Below, piece by piece: positions 17,813 to 28,855 of a DNA stretch of 64,000 bases. The notes under the pieces are model-generated. The model was not told the origin of the DNA and did no database searches. It saw nothing but the letters and a program-made list of their open reading frames with translations. This DNA comes from Emticicia oligotrophica DSM 17448 (lineage in GTDB: Bacteria; Bacteroidota; Bacteroidia; Cytophagales; Spirosomataceae). The stretch covers positions 2,046,001 to 2,110,000 of the forward strand of contig NC_018748.1 in the NCBI RefSeq assembly GCF_000263195.1, read 5' to 3'. Numbering within the stretch: position 1 is the first letter of the stretch; each line of letters opens with the position of its first letter. A program made the translations under genes and the position numbers.

Positions 17813-20800
17813 TTAAAGGTTTTTCTGGTAAATTTTCATCGGAGCATTATTGAGTCCGAATAGTAATTTATTTCCTGCCCAAGCCATATTTTTTACATCA
17901 CCACGTAAATTTAAGCCAGATTTGTGTTGAGGAATATACTCGAAATTGGCTCCACCTTTGTTGATAAATACTTGACCGTGATTAGCATCAATATTTCCGA
18001 TTCTCGCCCTCATTTTGGTATTATTTCCTGCCAGTAATAAGTCAGGAAGTTTATCGCCATTCAGGTCTTTTATACTAATTGTATTAACCATTGAAAACTG
18101 AGCGGCAATTGGCAATTTATTGAAAATGAAGTTTTCGCCTTGATTGATGATAATGCCAGATGATAATTCGAAAATTTTATTCGTAAATGAGTCATTATCG
18201 CCTAAAAACTTCAATACATCAGTAGTCTGGGCTTCAGAATAAGATTGATAATTGGTGTATTGTTTACGTAGATTCGGTACTTGTGTAGCCAATTCGTCTA
18301 AACTATAAGCTGGGTGGCTTTTTCCTTGAATATAATAAGATAAGATGGGGTCAATCTTTCCATTTCCATCGAAGTCTTTTACGGTGAGGGTAAAAGGTTC
18401 GTTTAGAGAGGCTTTATATTGTGTATTTTGCCCCATATTTCCCACAACAATATCTTGGTCGCCATCATTATCTAAATCAGCAGCTTCGATACTTTGCCAG
18501 AAACCATTCGTTCCTGGAATTTCTTGCTTCGTGAATTGCCCTTTCTGATTTTTCAAAATTGTTACAGGCATCCATTCTCCTACAAATACAAGGTCTTTTT
18601 GGCCGTCTTTGTTCACATCAACTGCGGCAGCATCGGTTATCAAACCAAGCTTTGTGAAAATTTCGTTTTGACTTTCTTTAAAAACACCTTTATCGTTGAT
18701 TAGAAGAGCTGAAGGGTTGAAGGCTGGATAGTTTTGAGGAACTACATAACCACTTAGAAATAAATCCAAATCACCGTCATTATCGGCATCAAAAGGCACT
18801 ACTTTACTTTTTGAGTTTCGGAATACAGGCAGACGGTCTTCCGATTTAGAGAAATTTCCTCTACCATCATTCAAATAGAGGCGGTCTTGTAGCAGAAAAT
18901 CATCAACCAAATATTCATAGCCTCCACTTACAACATATAAATCAAGGTCGCCATCATTATCGGCATCGAAGAAAGCAGCATCTGCATCTGTACAAAGTTC
19001 ATCTTGCTTGAATACCATTTGATTAGTTTCACGAAAATTACCCATTTTGTCTTGAATGATAATCTTGCCCTGAGAGCCTTTGCCTCCACCCAGATATACA
19101 TCTTCCAGTTTATCTCCGTTAATGTCTCCTACGGCCAAAGCAGGACCTTGATAAGAGTACATTTGTGGTAGAAGTACTTGGCGAGCAAAGTCGTTGAGAG
19201 GCATTTGTGCGTGGCTGAAAGCTTGGTCTGACACTTGTACAAAAAATGGATTGTCATTTTCGAATGGTTGATACTCAATTCCTCTTTGGTAGCTGATGGT
19301 ATGGTTTTTATTGGCAGCTAAGTTGCGAATAACTTGAGTGGTATTATCATTCCATACAATTCGAAGGCTATCAATTTGCTGATTTTTGCCTAAACCAAAA
19401 TGTAAAGGTGCTGCAATACTACTCTGAAAACCATGCAGGCTGCTTACTTCTTGATATTGTTTTAAGCCACCTGAATAGGCATATATTTTTGTTCCTTCAA
19501 GGCTTTTGTTGGCATTTTTAAGCGAAAGTTCCACGTAGTTTTGTGGCTCATTTTCTTGCTGTAAGTTTTTATAAATGCTTGCTTCTGCATTTACGTTATT
19601 GACAATCAGTTCGAGGTCTCCATCATTATCTAAATCGGCATAAATCGCACCGTTTGAGTTAATTGGTAATTCAATTCCCCATTCTTTAGTTAAATTAGAA
19701 AAAGTAAGGTCGCCATTATTCTTAAATATATAATTTGAATTGAGAGTTGCGGGCATTTGCTTGATGATTTCCAAGAGCGTTACTTCGCCACTATTTTTCT
19801 TATCGGCGTAGTATTTCATGAAATCCATATTGGTATAATCACGGAGATAACCATTCGTCACGAATAAATCTTTATATCCATCATTATCATAATCGGCAAA
19901 AAGAGCTGCCCAACTCCAGTCGGTATTTGAAATACCCGCTACTTGCCCTATTTCACTAAAAGTACCATCACCATTATTCAAGTGAAGCATATTTCTCATG
20001 GTTTCTGGGTGAAAACCATTTTTAAGCATAGAAAGATAAGCTTCATAATTATCAGGTCCGAAAAGCAATTTCTGACGTTTATTATCTTCAGGAAGCATAT
20101 CAAGCGTGATAATATCGGGAAGCAAGTCATTATTAAAATCAGCAATATCATTGCCCATTGAAAAATAACTTGTGTGGTCGGTCATTAGAGCGATATTATC
20201 ACTGAAAGTGCCATTTTTATTGTTGATATAGAGATAGTCAGATTCAATGTAGTCGTTTGAAACATAAATATCTGGCCAATTATCATTATTTAAGTCGGCA
20301 ATATGGAGGCCTAAGCCAAAGCCAATTGGATTACCTTTGATGCCTGCTTCAACCGAAACATCAACAAATTTTCCGTTGTCATTTTTAAGAAGTTTATCGC
20401 CCGCTAAAGAATCCCTCATGGCATGAATGGCCTGCACATCGAAGCGATTAAAATCTTTCACATTATGATTCATGACATAAGCGTCTAAATCGCCATCTTT
20501 GTCATAATCAAAAAATGCAGTTTGTGTGGTATAGCCATCACTGTCGAGTCCATACTCGGCAGCTTTATCAGTAAAAGTTAGATTTTTATTATTGATATAA
20601 AGCTTATTTTTTCGAAGAGAGGGATTGTCAATATTTCCCGAAACCGAAACATAAATGTCATTCCAGCCATCATTATTGATATCAACTACCGAAACACCTG
20701 TTTTCCATTCACCATTATAAGTAATGCCTGCTTTTTCGGTAATATCTTCAAATTTAATTGATTTATCTCCTTTGTTGATATACAGTTTATCGCTCGAAAG

Positions 20801-21055
20801 ATTAGCTGTAAAATAAAGGTCAAGAAGGCCATCATTATTAAAGTCGGCGGCAGCAACACCTCCACCATTATAGAAATACTCATAGTTGAGTACGTTTTGA
20901 GTGTCGTTTTCTTCTACTTTATTAATAAAATCTATGCCTGTTTTTTGAGCACTGAGTTTTTCGAATTTAGTATTTTTTGATGAACACGAAATAATACCCA
21001 ATACGGCAATAGTGGAAAAAGAAACTATCGAAAGAAAAAAATAACGACGTATCAT
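17813..21055 (-). CDS. FG-GAP/VCBS-repeat lipoprotein with ASPIC/UnbV domain
   Basis: This ~1080-aa surface or outer-membrane lipoprotein has a signal peptide from MIRRYFFLSIVSF and a lipobox LGIISC (Cys24). It is built from Ca-binding-type FG-GAP/VCBS repeats with D-x-N-x-D-G-x-x-D-(I/L)-(Y/F) motifs: DFNNDGLLDLYF, DINNDGWNDIYV, DYDKDGDLDAYV, DYDNDGYKDLFV, DLDNDGDLELIV, DADNDGDLDLYV and more. An ASPIC/UnbV module (SSLHGFQSSIAAPLHFGLG) lies at about residues 530-600. Such CRTAC1-like proteins often accompany SusC/SusD pairs in Cytophagales. ATG 21055 was chosen over 21079 for the better signal peptide. A terminator separates it from susD, so it probably has its own promoter. Confidence 0.88.
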   Translation of the reverse strand: MIRRYFFLSIVSFSTIAVLGIISCSSKNTKFEKLSAQKTGIDFINKVEENDTQNVLNYEYFYNGGGVAAADFNNDGLLDLYFTANLSSDKLYINKGDKSIKFEDITEKAGITYNGEWKTGVSVVDINNDGWNDIYVSVSGNIDNPSLRKNKLYINNKNLTFTDKAAEYGLDSDGYTTQTAFFDYDKDGDLDAYVMNHNVKDFNRFDVQAIHAMRDSLAGDKLLKNDNGKFVDVSVEAGIKGNPIGFGLGLHIADLNNDNWPDIYVSNDYIESDYLYINNKNGTFSDNIALMTDHTSYFSMGNDIADFNNDLLPDIITLDMLPEDNKRQKLLFGPDNYEAYLSMLKNGFHPETMRNMLHLNNGDGTFSEIGQVAGISNTDWSWAALFADYDNDGYKDLFVTNGYLRDYTNMDFMKYYADKKNSGEVTLLEIIKQMPATLNSNYIFKNNGDLTFSNLTKEWGIELPINSNGAIYADLDNDGDLELIVNNVNAEASIYKNLQQENEPQNYVELSLKNANKSLEGTKIYAYSGGLKQYQEVSSLHGFQSSIAAPLHFGLGKNQQIDSLRIVWNDNTTQVIRNLAANKNHTISYQRGIEYQPFENDNPFFVQVSDQAFSHAQMPLNDFARQVLLPQMYSYQGPALAVGDINGDKLEDVYLGGGKGSQGKIIIQDKMGNFRETNQMVFKQDELCTDADAAFFDADNDGDLDLYVVSGGYEYLVDDFLLQDRLYLNDGRGNFSKSEDRLPVFRNSKSKVVPFDADNDGDLDLFLSGYVVPQNYPAFNPSALLINDKGVFKESQNEIFTKLGLITDAAAVDVNKDGQKDLVFVGEWMPVTILKNQKGQFTKQEIPGTNGFWQSIEAADLDNDGDQDIVVGNMGQNTQYKASLNEPFTLTVKDFDGNGKIDPILSYYIQGKSHPAYSLDELATQVPNLRKQYTNYQSYSEAQTTDVLKFLGDNDSFTNKIFELSSGIIINQGENFIFNKLPIAAQFSMVNTISIKDLNGDKLPDLLLAGNNTKMRARIGNIDANHGQVFINKGGANFEYIPQHKSGLNLRGDVKNMAWAGNKLLFGLNNAPMKIYQKNL

Positions 21056-21087
21056 GGTTTTGACGTATGAAAAAATCATGGTTTGAT

Positions 21088-21125
21088 GAAAAACAAAAGA
21101 AACGGAGCAAATATAGCTCCGTTTC
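21088..21125 (-). terminator. Terminator after the susD-like gene
   Basis: GAAACGGAGC (21099-21108) and GCTCCGTTTC (21116-21125) form a perfect 10-bp stem with a 7-base loop. On the minus strand a T-rich run follows. It lies 28 bases beyond the SusD stop and closes the SusC-SusD operon. Confidence 0.85.
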
Positions 21126-21152
21126 TATCAACTTTTATATGAAACAAATCTA

Positions 21153-22757
21153 CTATTTATCCCACCATACACGAGCAGTGAATGTATCTCCACCCGAAAT
21201 AGCAGCCACAGCTACTTTATAGTTTTCTGGATTGTACGAAGCTTCTGTTGATTTGTAAGGAATTCTTCTTGGAATTGAACCATTAGAGAATCCGTTTGGA
21301 TAAACAACAGGAGTAAGGGAAGGATATCCCGAACGACGCCAGTTTGACCAGCTTTCTATAAAATTAAATGTGATACCAGTAGCAACCCAAATTTGTTCGT
21401 TGATTTGTTTCAACGAAGCTTCTGTACTGCTTGTATTCAATGGATTTTTAGTTAAATAATCATCCATTGCCGCTACAGCTTTAGCAACTGAAGCATCTCC
21501 AGCAGCAGTACTGTTAAACTGTGCTAAAGAAGCAGCCGCAGCTTTTACACCATTTTTGTAGTGGTCAGCAGCGGTTGTAGCACCTACGTTCCAGCCTTTT
21601 ACTTTTGCCTCAGCTAAAAGCAATTCTGTCTCTGCATAAGTCATGATAAAGTTTACGCCGCTTCTGTCTAAGAAGATAGACGTACGTGGACGTGAATATT
21701 TACCAACACGAGCCACATCTGCACCTGAGCCAGATGCACCAGGGTACTGAGGGTGTTTGGCAATATCAGTAGCACCACCGTTAAGGTCATAACCATTTGG
21801 AAGACCAATTTGAACGCTTTCTGAGTTATCCCCAGCTAAGCTTTGATTAGTGTTGTTGGCATAACCAGCTTGTGCTACCTCAGCAATAGCACTGATACGT
21901 GGGTCAGAAGTTGCTTTCATATAATCGATGAAAGTTTTGCTCCAACGAACCTCACGGTAATCATCAGGTACTCTCAAAGCACCACTTGTGTTGTTTCCGT
22001 TTGTAGCATTATCAGTTAATACTTTTGCATTATCATCAACGCTTGTAAATACGCCACCAGCGTAAGCTTTTTCTGCCCAAGTTTTAGCGGCAGCAGCATC
22101 AACTTTCGAAAGACGCATCGCTAAACGCAACATCAAAGAATATCCGAATTTTTTCCATTTAGCAACATCACCACCATAGATTAAATCTGCCGTTGGTTTT
22201 GTTTTTGCAGTACTAAGGGCAGTGATTGCACCATCAAGCTCTGTAAGCATTGCTGGATAAATGCTCGATTGAGTATCATATTTTGGTGAAGTGATACCTT
22301 CTTTTGCTTTTAATGCTTGTGAGTAAGGTACATCGCCATAACAATCAGTGATACGAGCCAAGCAAAGAACTTTCATGATTGTTCCTACATTGTAAAGGTT
22401 CGACATCTCTGGTTTGTCTTTCACCAAATTCATCATTTCGTAAGATAATGATGCTGCACGGTATGTTTCTTCGTGAACACGTCCTTGATAAGCTACAAAA
22501 CTACCAGAAGCTACGTATTTATCGCCATTGCCATAATACGAGAAGGTAGAAGCTAAAGTTTGCGTCCACATACTTTGGAATAGTAACTGAGAATAACCAG
22601 TGTTACCATACTCAAACTGCGACTGCGATAAAAGATAGTTGGGGTTGAAAACCGCCGCACTTGTCTTGTTTGGGTCAGTATTTATTTCGTCGAACTTATC
22701 AGTACACGAAGTGAAAAATACTGTCAGAATTGTAAATATATATCCGAGTTTTTTCAT
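21153..22757 (-). CDS. SusD/RagB-family nutrient-binding outer-membrane lipoprotein
   Basis: From ATG 22757 the product is 534 aa with lipobox FFTSC (Cys18). The N-terminal DKFDEINTDPNKTSAAVF and the motif CLARITDCYGDVPYSQALK are typical of the SusD-like group that includes SusD_2. These proteins cap the SusC beta-barrel and capture ligand at the cell surface. The C-terminal half has the usual helical repeats plus ETELLLAEAKVKGW. The TTG at 22769 is a weaker start. The start codon follows the SusC stop by 14 bases, so the two form one operon. The ligand cannot be inferred, as no polysaccharide hydrolase lies beside the pair. Confidence 0.93.
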   Translation of the reverse strand: MKKLGYIFTILTVFFTSCTDKFDEINTDPNKTSAAVFNPNYLLSQSQFEYGNTGYSQLLFQSMWTQTLASTFSYYGNGDKYVASGSFVAYQGRVHEETYRAASLSYEMMNLVKDKPEMSNLYNVGTIMKVLCLARITDCYGDVPYSQALKAKEGITSPKYDTQSSIYPAMLTELDGAITALSTAKTKPTADLIYGGDVAKWKKFGYSLMLRLAMRLSKVDAAAAKTWAEKAYAGGVFTSVDDNAKVLTDNATNGNNTSGALRVPDDYREVRWSKTFIDYMKATSDPRISAIAEVAQAGYANNTNQSLAGDNSESVQIGLPNGYDLNGGATDIAKHPQYPGASGSGADVARVGKYSRPRTSIFLDRSGVNFIMTYAETELLLAEAKVKGWNVGATTAADHYKNGVKAAAASLAQFNSTAAGDASVAKAVAAMDDYLTKNPLNTSSTEASLKQINEQIWVATGITFNFIESWSNWRRSGYPSLTPVVYPNGFSNGSIPRRIPYKSTEASYNPENYKVAVAAISGGDTFTARVWWDK

Positions 22758-22771
22758 GAGTAAAGCCAAAA

Positions 22772-25700
22772 TTAGAATTTAACATTTAGGTTCAAACCGT
22801 AAGTACGAGTAGATGGTAAGCTATTACCTTCGATACCTGCGTAGCTAAGAATTGGAGAGAAACCAGCTTCTGGGTCGATGTTTTCTGTACGTTTCAATAA
22901 TGTCAAGAGGTTTCTTGCTACGATTGAAAGTTCAACTCCTTTGATAGGTGTTTTGCCTAAAATCTTAGGATTTAAAGAGTAACCCAAAGTAACCTGACGA
23001 AGCTTAATAAAGCTACCATCCATTACGTTCAATGCTGAAATTCTGCGAGCTAAGTTTTGGTAGTAAGTTTGTGCTGGTACATTTACTGTATTAGTAGCAC
23101 CATCTTTAGTTACACCAGCCGCAACTACACCAGTTTCACGACCATCAAGAGTCATTTGGTGTAAACCACGGAAGATTGTGTAATAATTAGTTGCCGATAA
23201 TACTTTATTTCCAAAACGGTAGTCAATCAAGAAAGCAAGATTGAAGTTTTTGTAGCTGAATTCGTTATTGAAACCACCATATACTTTAGGTAAAACCGAA
23301 CCCATTGGTGTACGTGAAGGAGCTTGCACCGGAATACCTGTCGCATCAATCACTACTCTTCCTTGTGCGTCATAAACAAAGTCATTAGCCATGATTTGTG
23401 GGCCAGGAAGACCTTTAATCAATGCAGTATTAGCGTTTAATGGACGATAAGTGCCTAAACCTAATTGTTGGTCAGCTGTGCCAGAACCATTGATTTCAAC
23501 GATTTTGTTTTTAATCCAAGTGAAGTTAAAAGAGGTTGTCCATCTAAAACCACCTGTTTCAACCGGAACACCAGTAACTAAAGCTTCTAAACCAGAGTTT
23601 TGCGTAGAACCAGTACCAATTTGTTGGTTGCTGAAACCCGTTGCTTCTGATAACGAACCGTTGATAATCTCGTTATGAGTTTTGCGGTTGAAGTAAGCTA
23701 AATCAAATCCTAAGCGATTTTTGTAAAGTTTCAATTCTGTACCAACTTCAAATTCTGAAAGTGTATATGGTTTCAAGAATAAGTTTGGTAATGTACTACT
23801 GAATGAACCAGTTGTGATACCTTGAATAGCACCACCCACGCTATAATATTGTGAGGTGCTATAAGGGTTTGCTGGCTCACCACTCACCACTGCATAAGAT
23901 GCTCTGAATTTACCATAGCTTAATTTCGAAGAATTCAATAATTCGGTGAAATCATAGCTCAAAGAAGCAGATGGTGTGAAGATACCATAATTTCCTTGTG
24001 GTAAAGTAGAGAAGGCATCATAACGACCCGTCGTTGAAAGAATCAATTGGTTTTTATAATTGAAATCTAAAGAGTAGAAGGCCGAATTTGTTTGTTTTTC
24101 GCTATAACCATAGTCACGGTTGAATGACAATACGTTATAAGGGCTATAGAAGAATGGGATTACGAATGGACCACCACCTACGCGTAACATATCGTATTTG
24201 TTTTTACGAGCTGCAGCACCCACAATAGCATCAAGCGAAATGTCTTTTACTAAATTGAAATTTCCGCCTAAAATTGCTTCAGCGTTTAACTCTGTTGTGG
24301 TTGATTTTGATAAATCATCTAAACCACCTTTTTGTCCATTAGAATAAGCAGTACCCGTTGGTGTTACTTTAAAAGTACCATCATTCAATAAGTCATATCC
24401 TAAACGTGCTTGAGCATAGATATTTTTTGTAAGGTCATACTTAGCTGTTAGAGCCGAAAGCATACGCTTACGTTTTACATCATTTCTATAACGATTCACC
24501 ACAAACCAAGGGTTAGTTACGTAAATATCATCGTTATATTGAATCTCGTTGCCATTATCCGTACTAGCGTCATAGCCAGGTGCCAAGACTGATTGGTTAA
24601 CATTCGTAGCCAAGAAGTTGATGTTGTTGGCATTCATTGGGCCATCACTCAACTGTGGCTTGTTTTTGTTGAGTTCATCAACATAATTCACCATTAAGTC
24701 AACTTTTAATTTTTGACCGAATTTTTGAGAACCAGTGAAGTTGAATGTTTTACGGTCAAGGCCACTATTACGAAGAATAGAGTTATTATCAAGATTAGCT
24801 AATGAAAGACGGAAATTACCAGTTTCGTTACCGCTTGCAATGGCCAATGAGTTTGTAATTGATGAGCCTGTACGGTAGAAATTGTTGATATTATTTTTTA
24901 CAGCTGAGTAAGGGTAGCTTTTACCATCAAATTGGATAGTTGAAGCACCATCAAGTTTTTCACCCCAGCTTAGCATACCACTGTTTAATGCACTCACAGT
25001 GTTCGTAGGGCGTTTGCCGTTTAAGCCTTGGCCATAAACATATTGGTAATCAGTGAAGTTGATAGCTTGTTCAGCAACTGTGTTGAGGTTATAATCAACC
25101 GACATTTTACCTTTTTTACCAGATTTTGTGGTAATTAAGATTACACCATTCGCTGCACGTGCACCATAAAGAGCTGATGCAGAAGCACCTTTTAATACCG
25201 ACATACTCTCGATATCATCTGGATTAAGGTTTGAGATACCATCGCCGTTATCTGCACCACCCCATTCTCCGGCACTACCTCTTTGAGTGTTATCAATTGG
25301 CACACCGTTTAATACAATAAGTGGAGAACTCGCCGTAAAACTTGCCATACCTCTCAACAAGATTCTTGCCGAAGAACCTGAGCCACCGTTCGTACCAGAG
25401 ATATTCAAACCCGCTACACGGCCAGCCATTGAGTAGGCAACATTTGTTTCACGAGCTTTAGTCATTTGGTCGCCATTAACGGTTGTTACTGCATAACCAA
25501 CTTTACGAGCTTCTTTTGAGATACCTAAGGCAGTTACCACAACCTCATTCAATGCACCTGCTTCTGGTGTTAAACTTATGTTGATGACACTTGAAGAACC
25601 CACAGTAACATTTGTAGCAGCAAAGCCAATATAGCTAAATGTAAGCACATTCCCTTTAGAAGCTTCGATTGAGTACATTCCTTTGTCATCAGAAATTGTA

Positions 25701-25858
25701 CCTTTGGTAGAACCTTTAATTGCCACGTTTACTCCATAGAGAGGAGCTCCTGAGTCGTCTGTTACTTTCCCCGTGATTTTCATGTTTTGAGCAAAACTCT
25801 GAAACATAAAAAGAGAAAGTATGAAGGCAGTAAAAAACTGTCGTAATGTTTTCTTCAT
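22772..25858 (-). CDS. SusC/RagA-family TonB-linked outer-membrane transporter
   Basis: This 1028-aa TonB-dependent transporter moves nutrients captured by its SusD partner across the outer membrane. A signal peptide (residues 1-23, ending SFA before Q) is followed by a carboxypeptidase-regulatory-like domain (KITGKVTDDSGAPLYGVNVA, ~27-110). Next come the TonB-box/linker region (LNEVVVTALGISKEARKVGY) and the plug with the SusC signature (VLKGASASALYGARAANGVI near 222). The barrel ends with TYGLNLNVKF and a terminal Phe, as expected for BAM-dependent assembly. No N-terminal STN domain is present, so no anti-sigma relay is expected. Confidence 0.95.
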   Translation of the reverse strand: MKKTLRQFFTAFILSLFMFQSFAQNMKITGKVTDDSGAPLYGVNVAIKGSTKGTISDDKGMYSIEASKGNVLTFSYIGFAATNVTVGSSSVINISLTPEAGALNEVVVTALGISKEARKVGYAVTTVNGDQMTKARETNVAYSMAGRVAGLNISGTNGGSGSSARILLRGMASFTASSPLIVLNGVPIDNTQRGSAGEWGGADNGDGISNLNPDDIESMSVLKGASASALYGARAANGVILITTKSGKKGKMSVDYNLNTVAEQAINFTDYQYVYGQGLNGKRPTNTVSALNSGMLSWGEKLDGASTIQFDGKSYPYSAVKNNINNFYRTGSSITNSLAIASGNETGNFRLSLANLDNNSILRNSGLDRKTFNFTGSQKFGQKLKVDLMVNYVDELNKNKPQLSDGPMNANNINFLATNVNQSVLAPGYDASTDNGNEIQYNDDIYVTNPWFVVNRYRNDVKRKRMLSALTAKYDLTKNIYAQARLGYDLLNDGTFKVTPTGTAYSNGQKGGLDDLSKSTTTELNAEAILGGNFNLVKDISLDAIVGAAARKNKYDMLRVGGGPFVIPFFYSPYNVLSFNRDYGYSEKQTNSAFYSLDFNYKNQLILSTTGRYDAFSTLPQGNYGIFTPSASLSYDFTELLNSSKLSYGKFRASYAVVSGEPANPYSTSQYYSVGGAIQGITTGSFSSTLPNLFLKPYTLSEFEVGTELKLYKNRLGFDLAYFNRKTHNEIINGSLSEATGFSNQQIGTGSTQNSGLEALVTGVPVETGGFRWTTSFNFTWIKNKIVEINGSGTADQQLGLGTYRPLNANTALIKGLPGPQIMANDFVYDAQGRVVIDATGIPVQAPSRTPMGSVLPKVYGGFNNEFSYKNFNLAFLIDYRFGNKVLSATNYYTIFRGLHQMTLDGRETGVVAAGVTKDGATNTVNVPAQTYYQNLARRISALNVMDGSFIKLRQVTLGYSLNPKILGKTPIKGVELSIVARNLLTLLKRTENIDPEAGFSPILSYAGIEGNSLPSTRTYGLNLNVKF

Positions 25859-26007
25859 ACTCGAAAATAATTGTTAGGTTAATGATTAAATAATTATAAT
25901 TTTATCGGTAATAAAACTATTAATGTCCGAATAATTTTTTATTAATTTTCAATTAACATCTTTAGAATGGATATTTGGTTTTTTAACGCAAAATGCTCTA
26001 AAGACCA

Positions 26008-26045
26008 GCAAAAAAGCCCTTCAAATGGGCTTTGAAGGGCTTTTT
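26008..26045 (-). terminator. Terminator of the LamG/Kelch regulator gene
   Basis: AAAAAGCCCTTCAAA (26011-26025) and TTTGAAGGGCTTTTT (26031-26045) form a perfect 15-bp stem with a 5-base loop. It separates the regulator gene from susC, so the two are transcribed independently even though they are collinear. Confidence 0.88.
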
Positions 26046-26102
26046 AATTTTTTTTAATAAATAAGCAAAATTTTGATATTAACTTAATATGAATTGTTCA
26101 AA

Positions 26103-28703
26103 CTAGTCTTCTAATACTTTTTTATACGAAACTTTATATTCTTCAGAATAAAGCCGTTTATAGTCTTTGGCAAATTTTTCGTAGGATGTTTTCGCTAATG
26201 AATGCTTTCCTAGTTGTACCAATGCACGGCACTTCATCATCATTGCAGTTTCATCAACCGAATCGAATTTAAAAATATTATCAGCAATCTCCACCATTTC
26301 TTCGGCATGAATATCGACATCTAACTGCTTCGAATAAGCCAAGTAAGTATCAATGACTTTATTTGAAATTTCGCCTTTAAAATCATCAAGCCATTCATAT
26401 TCTAAATTTGTAAGAAAACCTCCACGATTGATGATTTCAGTAAGCTGATTGATTTGTTTATGATTGATTGTCTTTTTTGAATTAGTCAATTTCAAGAACT
26501 CAAAATAATCTAAACAAACCTTCTCTGGTTCAAAGCTAATCATCCAGTTACCAGTATCCTTATTAATTTGTATTGAAGGCATTTGTTCGAAAATAGTCTT
26601 TAATTTTGTAATATTCACTGAGCGATTATTACGTGCACTATCAACTGATTTATCAAACCACAAAAGTTCATTTAGCTGTTGGGAATTAACGCCTTTATTC
26701 CATCTAACCGAATGTAATAAAATGTATAGGAACATTTCTCTCAATAAAGGAGTAAACATATTGGTAAGGTCTGTTTCTTTATCATTAATAAACTGAAATC
26801 CGCCAAATAATAAGATTTTACCTTTGGGGGCCTTACTTGCTTCAAAGGACTCCTCTTCAACTTGTTTTTCAAGAGCATGATTCGGCTTCACTATTTGATA
26901 ATTCAAATCGGAGACTTTTGAAGATAGTGTTCGGTGTTTATTTTGTCTGTTTTTTTGAAATAAATAGTAGCTAATAATAGCCAATAAAAGAAAAACACTT
27001 GTTCCCGAAATTATTTTCATCCAATTCCCAGCTTTGAGCGACTGCGTGTTTTGGTTTGAAATGGGTAAATTAGATGGTGGGAAATCAAGTGAATAAATGA
27101 CTAATTCTGTAGAATCAACGGGCGGACGATTATGGAAGCTTGTAACGCAATAGAGCTTCTTGTTAGTCTTGTCGAAATACAGGTCGCTATAACTTGCGAC
27201 ATCAATAAATTGATATGGGATTGATTTTGATATGGGTTTTAACTCTGGTTTTGTGAGTGAACCCTCTACTAATTGTAAGTTTGAATTGAACTTTAGTTGA
27301 TTATAAATTAAGCCATAAAACTTATCGCTTTTTTCATCTAAAATCAAAGAAGAAGCTACAGAAAATGGTGTTTCAGGTTTTCTTAATTCATAAATTTTTT
27401 TGCTACTTCCATTTTTCCAGTCAATCTCAAAGAGATCATAATAATTCTGTGGACTCAGGCCTTGGTCGCCAGTTTTTGAGCCAAATCCACCTAGTAAATA
27501 GGATGTAGTTTTATTTTTAGAACCTAACCCAAACATATAACGTGGCGAAATTGTATCGCCTTTTAGTCTAAGTTCGGTCCAAGTATTATTTTGAAAAGAG
27601 TACTTTTTGAATGTATTTTTATATTTATATTGGCCATATCCACCAATAAAAACTACTGCAGTATCATTGGGATATAAAAATTTATTATGATGCCAATATT
27701 CGGTTAATTCATACTTTTCATTTGGAGAGATATCCCAACTATTATTTAGTGCGTTGTAATTAAATATTTTTTTTTCGTTGAGCCTTACATTGATGAGTTT
27801 ATTAGATGTTGGTAAAAAAATACCTAAGTCACCAAATGTGAATTTCTTGTGATTTTGCGTAAAAGGTTTGCTAGTTAAGGAATCATTCCGTGTGTTAAAA
27901 AGAAAAGTACGTAGGTCGGTATTGATAATAATTCTTCTATTTTTGTTATCAAAAGCAAAACTTAAATTTCCCTTCACCTTTAGCTTCGCCAATTGCTTCC
28001 ATTCATGGTGTTTTTTTAGTAACCATTGTGCATTTTTAGTAAATGCTTTTTGGTTAACATTAAATGTATCATTGGTTGAGTTTCCAGAAATCTCTCTTAG
28101 AGGCCAATGATGTATGATTTTTGAATCAACGCCCAGCGTTATATTTCGCAGATACATCGGTAGGGCATCGCTTGTAAGATACTTTGAATCGGAGCATTCT
28201 CCGAAATATACCTTAAAACAGTTATTTAATGTATTAGAAATAGAGCCTTTGCCTAATAATTGATTATTGACAAATATTTGTATGCCTTTATTTCGAACAA
28301 CTACCTTAAATTTGTGCCAATGGCTATAAAATAGGTCGGAATTGGGCGTTAGAAGTCTGATATCTTTATCGCCTGAAATTACTCTGAAGGTTTGTTGTTT
28401 TCCACGGGGGTCAGATTGAAACAAGAGGTCAAGATTCTTACCATCGGTTGTGATGAGTCGAAAGACGTACCCAAAGTACGATTTTACATCAGGCTTAAAT
28501 TTAAGTTCAAACCCTAGCTCAAAATTACCTTTCAGACAAAGTGGTTTTTCTTGACCAAGAACTAAAGAAGTACGTTTATCAGTTATAACTTCGTGCCCTA
28601 AAAACTCAAGTCCATACTCTTGGCTGAAGGCCTTTCCATGAGTAAGACATATCAGAATGAATACGAATAATACTGAATTGGTGTTTCTAAGTGCTTTGAG
28701 CAT
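26103..28703 (-). CDS. Membrane-spanning LamG/Kelch sensor with cytoplasmic SARP-like DNA-binding region
   Basis: This 866-aa protein (from ATG 28703) has a signal peptide of about 27 residues. A LamG/concanavalin-like region (~30-220, with FELGFELKFKP and HWHKFKVVVRNKGIQIFVNN) follows. Next is a Kelch-type propeller (~230-545; VVFIGGYGQYKYKN, SYLLGGFGSKTGDQG), then one transmembrane helix near 563-583 (SGTSVFLLLAIISYYLF). The ~275-residue cytoplasmic tail starts with a winged-helix-like region (ILLFGGFQFI ... SARNNRSVNITKLKTIFEQM) followed by helical repeats. That layout resembles bacterial transcriptional-activation (BTAD/SARP-type) regulators. It would sense a ligand outside the cytoplasm and act on DNA from the membrane. 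It lies upstream of SusC/SusD on the same strand, and control of them is inference. Confidence 0.75.
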   Translation of the reverse strand: MLKALRNTNSVLFVFILICLTHGKAFSQEYGLEFLGHEVITDKRTSLVLGQEKPLCLKGNFELGFELKFKPDVKSYFGYVFRLITTDGKNLDLLFQSDPRGKQQTFRVISGDKDIRLLTPNSDLFYSHWHKFKVVVRNKGIQIFVNNQLLGKGSISNTLNNCFKVYFGECSDSKYLTSDALPMYLRNITLGVDSKIIHHWPLREISGNSTNDTFNVNQKAFTKNAQWLLKKHHEWKQLAKLKVKGNLSFAFDNKNRRIIINTDLRTFLFNTRNDSLTSKPFTQNHKKFTFGDLGIFLPTSNKLINVRLNEKKIFNYNALNNSWDISPNEKYELTEYWHHNKFLYPNDTAVVFIGGYGQYKYKNTFKKYSFQNNTWTELRLKGDTISPRYMFGLGSKNKTTSYLLGGFGSKTGDQGLSPQNYYDLFEIDWKNGSSKKIYELRKPETPFSVASSLILDEKSDKFYGLIYNQLKFNSNLQLVEGSLTKPELKPISKSIPYQFIDVASYSDLYFDKTNKKLYCVTSFHNRPPVDSTELVIYSLDFPPSNLPISNQNTQSLKAGNWMKIISGTSVFLLLAIISYYLFQKNRQNKHRTLSSKVSDLNYQIVKPNHALEKQVEEESFEASKAPKGKILLFGGFQFINDKETDLTNMFTPLLREMFLYILLHSVRWNKGVNSQQLNELLWFDKSVDSARNNRSVNITKLKTIFEQMPSIQINKDTGNWMISFEPEKVCLDYFEFLKLTNSKKTINHKQINQLTEIINRGGFLTNLEYEWLDDFKGEISNKVIDTYLAYSKQLDVDIHAEEMVEIADNIFKFDSVDETAMMMKCRALVQLGKHSLAKTSYEKFAKDYKRLYSEEYKVSYKKVLED

Positions 28704-28855
28704 CGTTGGAAGTACATTATAGAGCATGCAATTTAGCTACAAAAATATAACCCTTCTGTTTAATTTAAGAAAAAAAACATTGATTTCTGATTTTATTCTA
28801 ATAGTATTTTTTACTTTAAGTATTCTTTTTGTACAACTCATACACCCTAAAGCGA

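Follow-up and report, generated by a model that had tools for sequence, protein, structure and literature searches.

A predicted membrane-spanning SARP-like protein upstream of a susCD locus in Emticicia oligotrophica, and TTAA arrays at 11-bp steps beside the glycan genes of its relatives

The window analysed here is a stretch of 64,000 nucleotides from Emticicia oligotrophica DSM 17448 (NC_018748.1, positions 2,046,001 to 2,110,000). A gene for a putative membrane-spanning regulator lies directly upstream of susC, susD and an FG-GAP/ASPIC gene on the same strand (Table 1), an order that had been predicted from the sequence and that is borne out by the open reading frames and by Pfam and TIGR04056 matches. 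The regulator would be shortened to 866 residues if it began at the in-frame ATG at 28703, which is where the original prediction placed its end. Each unit had also been credited with a terminator of its own; terminator-like hairpins do lie in the gap between the regulator and susC and past susD, but there is none between susC and susD, which are 2 bp apart, and a scan of the 113 bp that follow the FG-GAP/ASPIC gene gave none either. No GH gene adjoins the regulator in the window, where the locus consists only of SusCD and the FG-GAP/ASPIC gene.

Table 1. Features of the regulator-susCD locus, with positions in the window and the basis of each assignment.
Feature	Position	Strand	Basis
Membrane-spanning SARP-like regulator, 874 aa	26103..28727	-	ORF, alignment, hydropathy
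Signal peptide, residues ~1-35	28623..28727	-	Hydropathy; cleavage site judged by eye
All-beta domain, LamG-like (weak assignment), residues ~40-208	28104..28610	-	Pfam Laminin_G_3 below cut-off; model strands
Kelch-type propeller, residues ~227-548	27084..28049	-	Pfam Kelch models, Foldseek, PDB profile matches
Transmembrane helix, residues ~572-590	26958..27014	-	Hydropathy
OmpR-type winged helix, residues ~636-739	26511..26822	-	Model pLDDT 89-98 per block; AfsR/EmbR matches
Putative recognition helix, residues ~695-713, conserved NN(R).V motif	26589..26645	-	Alignments; model helix 98-116
BTAD/TPR-like helical bundle, residues ~740-874	26106..26510	-	Model, Foldseek; weak BTAD matches in 3/39 members
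Terminator-like hairpin, regulator/susC gap	26011..26045	.	Scan flagged + only; U tract on - read from sequence
Putative operator TTAAT, TTAAT, TTATT, TTAAT, exact 11-bp steps, upstream of susC	25919..25956	-	Conservation, pattern scan
Possible -7 element TAGTTTTA, 11 nt past TTAT of third unit	25912..25919	-	Sequence; spacing compared by eye
susC	22772..25858	-	TIGR04056, 600 bits
susD	21153..22769	-	Pfam SusD-like_2 1.3e-72
Terminator-like hairpin past susD	21098..21126	-	Hairpin scan
FG-GAP/ASPIC gene, lipobox by eye	17813..21079	-	Pfam FG-GAP_3, UnbV_ASPIC

Hydropathy exceeds 1.5 at only two places in the regulator, residues 10-28 and 572-590, in agreement with the signal peptide and single transmembrane helix proposed originally. 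Basic residues follow directly after the second peak, a peak of the transmembrane type is present in 38 of 39 aligned members, and Q36, directly past the signal peptide, is nearly invariant in the alignment of these 39 proteins. The sensor part was modelled from residue 24 to 566 (pLDDT 91.3), and Kelch propellers dominate the best 50 Foldseek rows, with matches at E 3e-10; together with one Pfam Kelch model that lies just over its cut-off (the other Kelch models lie under theirs), this upholds the predicted propeller. The LamG domain that was predicted beside it fares less well: the model does contain an all-beta domain, but Laminin_G_3 reaches only E 0.0053 in the window protein, below the cut-off, and is matched in 1 of the 39 members. 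LamG is not established for this domain by the best 50 Foldseek rows or by the best 60 PDB profile matches listed, and the assignment is weak because the listed PDB matches all cover the propeller and Kelch dominates the Foldseek rows. An anchor in the inner membrane would place the sensor part in the periplasm, which is more likely than the exterior, cell-surface position first described; we infer this topology from hydropathy only.

For the C-terminal part, in which winged-helix-like and repeat segments had been noted, an AlphaFold model of residues 598-874 built from 58 sequences (pLDDT 91.8) contains a winged helix and then a helical bundle. The only PDB chains that Foldseek matched to this model below E 0.001 are six SARPs, three of AfsR and three of EmbR (E 3.9e-6 to 4.3e-4, probability 1.0, TM-score on the query 0.58-0.63); the rows after them are at E 0.05 or worse and are mostly TPR proteins. 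The NN(R).V motif falls in helix three of the winged helix, which would be expected to serve as recognition helix. We predict from this that the module has a SARP fold, and thus a DNA-binding one, made of an OmpR-type winged helix and a BTAD bundle. A PDB sequence search with the C-terminal profile gave 0 matches, none of the Pfam SARP models (Trans_reg_C/BTAD) reaches its curated cut-off in the window protein, with nothing credible in the C-terminus, and the BTAD matches in family members are weak (3 of 39, best E 0.019). The SARP module is usually N-terminal in a soluble protein, whereas here it is C-terminal, behind a transmembrane helix, and because both the Pfam cut-off and the usual layout fail we term the regulator SARP-like. 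The genome of E. oligotrophica contains one such regulator and one weak extra match, a MEDS-BTAD protein (L212:880-2349) that hhalign aligns to the module profile over 219 columns (probability 53.7, E 1.3e-4).

That the architecture is more than chance is confirmed by 38 relatives that align end to end with the window protein, the 39 proteins including its own showing 23-70% identity to it; truncated, split or variant members (L071, L089, L090, L092, L065 and L086-L088) were left out of this alignment. No relative was found when the contigs of the genomes were scanned with a single protein as query, but when the alignment served as query, scanning named genomes with its profile gave 427 matching stretches, 364 of them relatives; the best 80 were kept. 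These 80 come from Emticicia, Arcicella, Lacihabitans, Jiulongibacter, Dyadobacter, Larkinella, Spirosoma, Pedobacter, Mucilaginibacter, Sphingobacterium, Chitinophaga and other genera; relatives thus occur in the orders Cytophagales (e.g. Emticicia), Sphingobacteriales (Mucilaginibacter) and Chitinophagales (Chitinophaga). The regulator protein is present in 31/150 genomes of the family and in 18/241 genomes of the order (some of them common to the family sample), and a profile of the C-terminal part matched 11 of 395 genomes of the phylum, that of E. oligotrophica counted in. In family f18, four variants of 788-792 aa (L065, L086, L087, L088) have a LamG domain before the same SARP-like module.

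Neighbouring genes were examined around the best 80 of the 364 relatives by calling ORFs of at least 80 aa mechanically and labelling them with profiles built in this analysis. Within six ORFs of the regulator we found SusC at 44 loci, SusD at 40, GH92 at 48, GH3 at 19, GH95-like genes (a GH95 cluster and a DUF5703/GH95 cluster joined) at 20 and GH99-like genes at 48, the last label being weak, as one representative is below the Pfam GH99 cut-off and another has no match at E 0.001. SusC, GH92 or a GH99-like gene was present at 76 of the 80 loci. When only the 64 loci flanked by 8 kb or more in both directions are considered, SusC is found at 41, GH92 at 38, GH99-like genes at 40 and any of the three at 63, the sole exception being a Spirosoma (L136); these loci are related and the counts are not independent. 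Linkage to SusCD is thus present among the relatives, and neither of the two findings that would have spoken against the original prediction (a C-terminal fold of a kind that does not bind DNA, or homologues without linkage to SusCD) was made. As a yardstick, in the 5.2 Mb genome of E. oligotrophica 21 SusC genes pass the curated cut-off and GH92 is matched three times, once weakly. GH92 is an immediate neighbour of the regulator at 36 of the 80 loci and SusC at 19 (12 downstream on the same strand and 7 divergent), and in Emticicia aquatica GH29 and BNR genes adjoin it. The GH92 family points to alpha-mannosides, i.e. mannan or N-glycans. One single-linkage cluster (c0) mixed unrelated proteins, and a profile of its motif-bearing members was used for counting. 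An alginate reading of recurrent neighbours of ~750 aa, which was based on sizes only, was dropped when Pfam identified them as GH92. At two Larkinella loci (L109, L117) the gene for a DUF7133 protein is flanked by GH95 and GH99-like genes in the vicinity of the regulator; the L117 protein also has a cytochrome c domain.

Alignment of the intergenic regions between regulator and susC revealed that TTA(A/T) units at 11-bp steps form a conserved block, and a similar array was seen by eye in five further groups with other gene orders, in one of which the first step is 12 bp. Of the 144 intergenic regions that flank the regulator, 50 contain TTAA triples at lag 11, 51 in all (102 if both strands of the palindromic core are counted); every other lag from 6 to 30 gives 2 sites or fewer, and none of 200 dinucleotide shuffles gives more than 2 regions. 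Among all 256 tetramers at 26 lags (5-30), TTAA at 11 ranks first with its 51 triples; the next at this lag, ATTA (23), CTTA (6) and TAAG (5), all overlap the TTAA core, ATTA at lag 23 gives 5 and the others no more than 4, which is also the best figure for a core that does not overlap TTAA. In the 1.64 Mb of the 80 loci there are 82 lag-11 sites, distributed over 55 loci and never inside ORFs of at least 100 aa, compared with 0-7 sites for each of the other lags from 8 to 15. The strict site is absent from 25 loci, including four close relatives of the window (L093, L094, L096, L099) in which the third unit is TTAT.

These sites are unevenly distributed among the neighbouring genes. Of 53 GH92 genes, 27 have a site in the 450 bp upstream; the figures are 18 of 47 for SusC, 12 of 20 for GH95-like genes, 10 of 57 for GH99-like genes, 3 of 19 for GH3, 26 of 78 for the regulator itself and 0 of 39 for SusD. 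Pooling the PUL genes (SusC, GH92, GH95-like, GH99-like and GH3) gives 70/196 against 8/280 for other ORFs, where ORFs of 300 aa or less, or less than 450 bp from the relevant stretch end, were dropped and a divergent region was counted for both genes. Among the distant relatives, ten f18 loci in which the architecture is complete contain 6 lag-11 sites, two of them overlapping and positioned just behind a regulator, and no site at lags 8-10 and 12-15; the loci of the four LamG-SARP variants have 0 sites in 76 kb. The loci of 13 phylum-level relatives likewise have 0 sites at lag 11 in 48.8 kb; separately, TTAA arrays at 12-bp steps, mostly TTAACCC, were observed in 3 of the 9 genomes of these relatives (L178, L179, L183, L186). 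In excerpts of PMC10936776, the repeats of SARP operators are described as lying 11 or 22 bp from each other, and the 3' repeat as lying 8 bp from the -10 element. Overlooked in the original prediction, the arrays at 11-bp steps before susC, GH92, GH95 and regulator genes are likely to be an operator.

In Bacteroidota the -7 box is TAnnTTTG, with TTTG as its core. Orientation could be assigned to 38 of the 82 sites, those with only one possible target gene, and in 19 of these TTTG begins 15 nt past the last TTAA (24 of 38 at 14-16 nt), a spacing that agrees with this box. With near-duplicates removed, TTTG is found there in 12 of 28 sites and TTT in 16 of 28. Among the 38 orientable sites, only 14 have the fuller pattern T[AT]nnTTT[GC] starting 10-12 nt past the last TTAA. 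The sites also have bases in common outside TTAA. In the window itself, the first three units of the putative operator (TTAA, TTAA, TTAT) are conserved in five Emticicia/Arcicella-type relatives (L093, L094, L095, L096, L099). Its four-unit pattern is the only exact match in the genome; three more have one or two mismatches, and these are not significant alone because a reversed control gave four matches. Compared with the upstream regions of 20 other susC genes, the array scores 19/20 letters over four units, against 17 or fewer at lag 11, and 14/15 over three units, only one above several of them. The weight of the site thus comes from the conservation of its first three units in five relatives together with the four-unit score. 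One of the 20 other regions contains a perfect TTAAT triple (G000:C5 ~1558299; L273:8300-8325) at a SusC-SusD locus with two FG-GAP-like genes, as judged by eye, although its role is uncertain because it lies just 9 nt before the predicted susC start.

We rejected the idea that the array is exclusive to this regulator: TTAA triples occur in 147 of the 150 family genomes, far more than the 31 with the regulator protein, and arrays are present in a regulator-free genome (G148). The genome of E. oligotrophica has 12 TTAA triples and 17 matches to the reversed control pattern. Triples per genome average 11.1 (median 11) in the 31 family genomes that have the regulator and 8.0 (median 7) in the 119 that lack it; the Mann-Whitney P is 3e-4 for the counts and 0.04 for their excess over the control, kinship uncorrected, and array counts per genome therefore follow the regulator only weakly. 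In G148 there are 25 sites against 0 in the control, and where ORFs were called, around 9 of 15 loci (L237-L251), the arrays, many of them four units long, are found next to genes for histidine kinases, OmpR-type response regulators, outer-membrane efflux and RND proteins, with one upstream of a TonB-dependent receptor gene. These genes are likely to be other users of this type of operator.

The predicted SARP fold of a protein whose relatives adjoin glycan genes, many of them with repeats at SARP spacing, suggests that the regulator probably switches these neighbours on directly. We put a probability of roughly 0.78 on the reading that it is a one-component, membrane-spanning, SARP-like activator of susCD and, in relatives, of alpha-mannoside/N-glycan genes; the topology, ligand, DNA binding and activation are what we infer. 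This is close to the original prediction of a membrane regulator that activates susCD directly, which is supported by the fold, by linkage at 63 of 64 loci and by the arrays that it is presumed to bind. The periplasmic beta-domain/Kelch part would bind an oligosaccharide from mannan or N-glycans, most likely one containing alpha-mannose, and the signal would cross the inner membrane through the single transmembrane helix to the cytoplasmic SARP-type module. As a dimer or a higher array, the module would bind TTAA units at 11-bp steps beside the -7 element and recruit RNA polymerase at the -7 box, turning on susCD; in relatives, polymerase would be recruited to GH92, GH95, GH99-like and regulator promoters. 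By its predicted fold and the spacing of its presumed operator, then, the regulator appears to work like a SARP.

An alternative explanation for the arrays is that they are operators of an OmpR/PhoB-type response regulator and that the membrane protein, as a sensor, acts on some other target. In favour of this, a regulator-free genome has arrays with this core and step at two-component and efflux genes and at one TonB-receptor gene, and per-genome counts follow the regulator only weakly, but at regulator loci the arrays precede PUL genes in preference to other ORFs and are absent before SusD, and the sites have common bases beyond TTAA and a preferred distance to TTTG. Furthermore, no site was found in 96 kb of GH92 upstream regions taken one per genome from 20 regulator-free genomes, and the comparison of 0/20 with 27/53 at regulator loci gives a Fisher P of 1.8e-5, bearing in mind that related loci are not independent and that the 20 were drawn from 36 regulator-free genomes with GH92, all of one family, whereas most of the regulator-linked GH92 genes are from elsewhere. 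We consider this explanation very improbable.

A larger share of doubt attaches to the ligand, which might be a peptide, another glycan or a SusCD-linked cargo in place of an alpha-mannoside. Kelch propellers are frequent peptide binders, the window locus has no adjoining GH gene, and other relatives adjoin GH29, BNR or GH95 genes; set against these points is the presence of GH92 near 48 of the 80 relatives, often as the immediate neighbour, and we regard a non-mannoside ligand as the minority view, though one to be taken seriously. The regulator might also act on the arrays as a repressor, or be cut from the membrane first by regulated proteolysis. An array beside a -7 box could also block polymerase, and distant operons such as the second susC with its TTAAT triple would be within reach of a soluble fragment; however, the arrays lie upstream of the -7 box, much like the activating SARP boxes in excerpts of PMC10936776, and SusR, which has the same topology, is described as an activator in excerpts of PMC3878776. 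We think either variant unlikely and retain direct activation from the membrane as the preferred reading.

If this reading is correct, the regulator represents another architecture beside the three Bacteroidetes-specific control types (SusR-like, hybrid two-component and ECF/anti-sigma) that were listed in 2013, according to excerpts of PMC3878776. We lean towards the broader proposition that transmembrane SARPs form a separate and widespread class of PUL regulators in environmental Bacteroidota, in which a periplasmic Kelch sensor is joined directly to a SARP module whose operator, TTAA at 11-bp steps, lies beside the -7 box. To our knowledge, the control of SusCD outside gut Bacteroides is largely open, and a search of titles and abstracts found no paper on this architecture, which is not proof of its absence from print. 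An operator readable from sequence would make regulons predictable, perhaps including the second SusC-SusD-FG-GAP locus of E. oligotrophica, and would provide regulator-target pairs that can be tested by reporter fusion.

Hybrid two-component systems, which contain histidine kinase, receiver and AraC domains, resemble the regulator in having a periplasmic sensor fused to a cytoplasmic PUL regulator, but Pfam detects no kinase, receiver or AraC domain here. Membrane regulators of the ToxR/CadC type are membrane-bound, with an N-terminal winged helix and neither BTAD nor Kelch; the OmpR-type winged helix and the membrane attachment are alike, whereas the regulator has the opposite domain order and possesses a BTAD-type bundle and Kelch propeller. 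SusR we take to consist of a TPR sensor and a DUF6377-type C-terminal region, and a SusR-like proxy (P0001) has TPR/DUF6377 where the regulator, by Pfam, has neither. Membership of the SusR type was rejected, as this proxy, encoded near a SusF_SusE-family gene of another genome, shows no profile similarity to the module (hhalign probability 0.1). In excerpts of PMC3878776, SusR of Bacteroides is a one-component protein with a periplasmic sensor, a transmembrane segment and a cytoplasmic DNA-binding part, linked to susCD; the membrane-spanning one-component layout (here judged by hydropathy only) and the linkage are alike, but its predicted repeats are 67 or 77 bp apart, in contrast to the 11-bp arrays at regulator loci. 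The original claim that this architecture differs from known Sus regulators thus holds for the domains and not for the topology, which is common to SusR (excerpts of PMC3878776). With AfsR and EmbR, the regulator shares the predicted order of winged helix and BTAD-type bundle, and the arrays at its relatives' loci, which other regulators appear to use as well, resemble SARP operators in their 11-bp repeats and in a last repeat close to the -10/-7 element. Unlike these SARPs, the module is C-terminal in a single-pass membrane protein of Bacteroidota with a periplasmic sensor, its sequence is under the Pfam cut-offs and the arrays have an AT-rich TTAA core. The SARP module is best known from antibiotic control in actinobacteria, and the regulator described here joins it to a membrane sensor.
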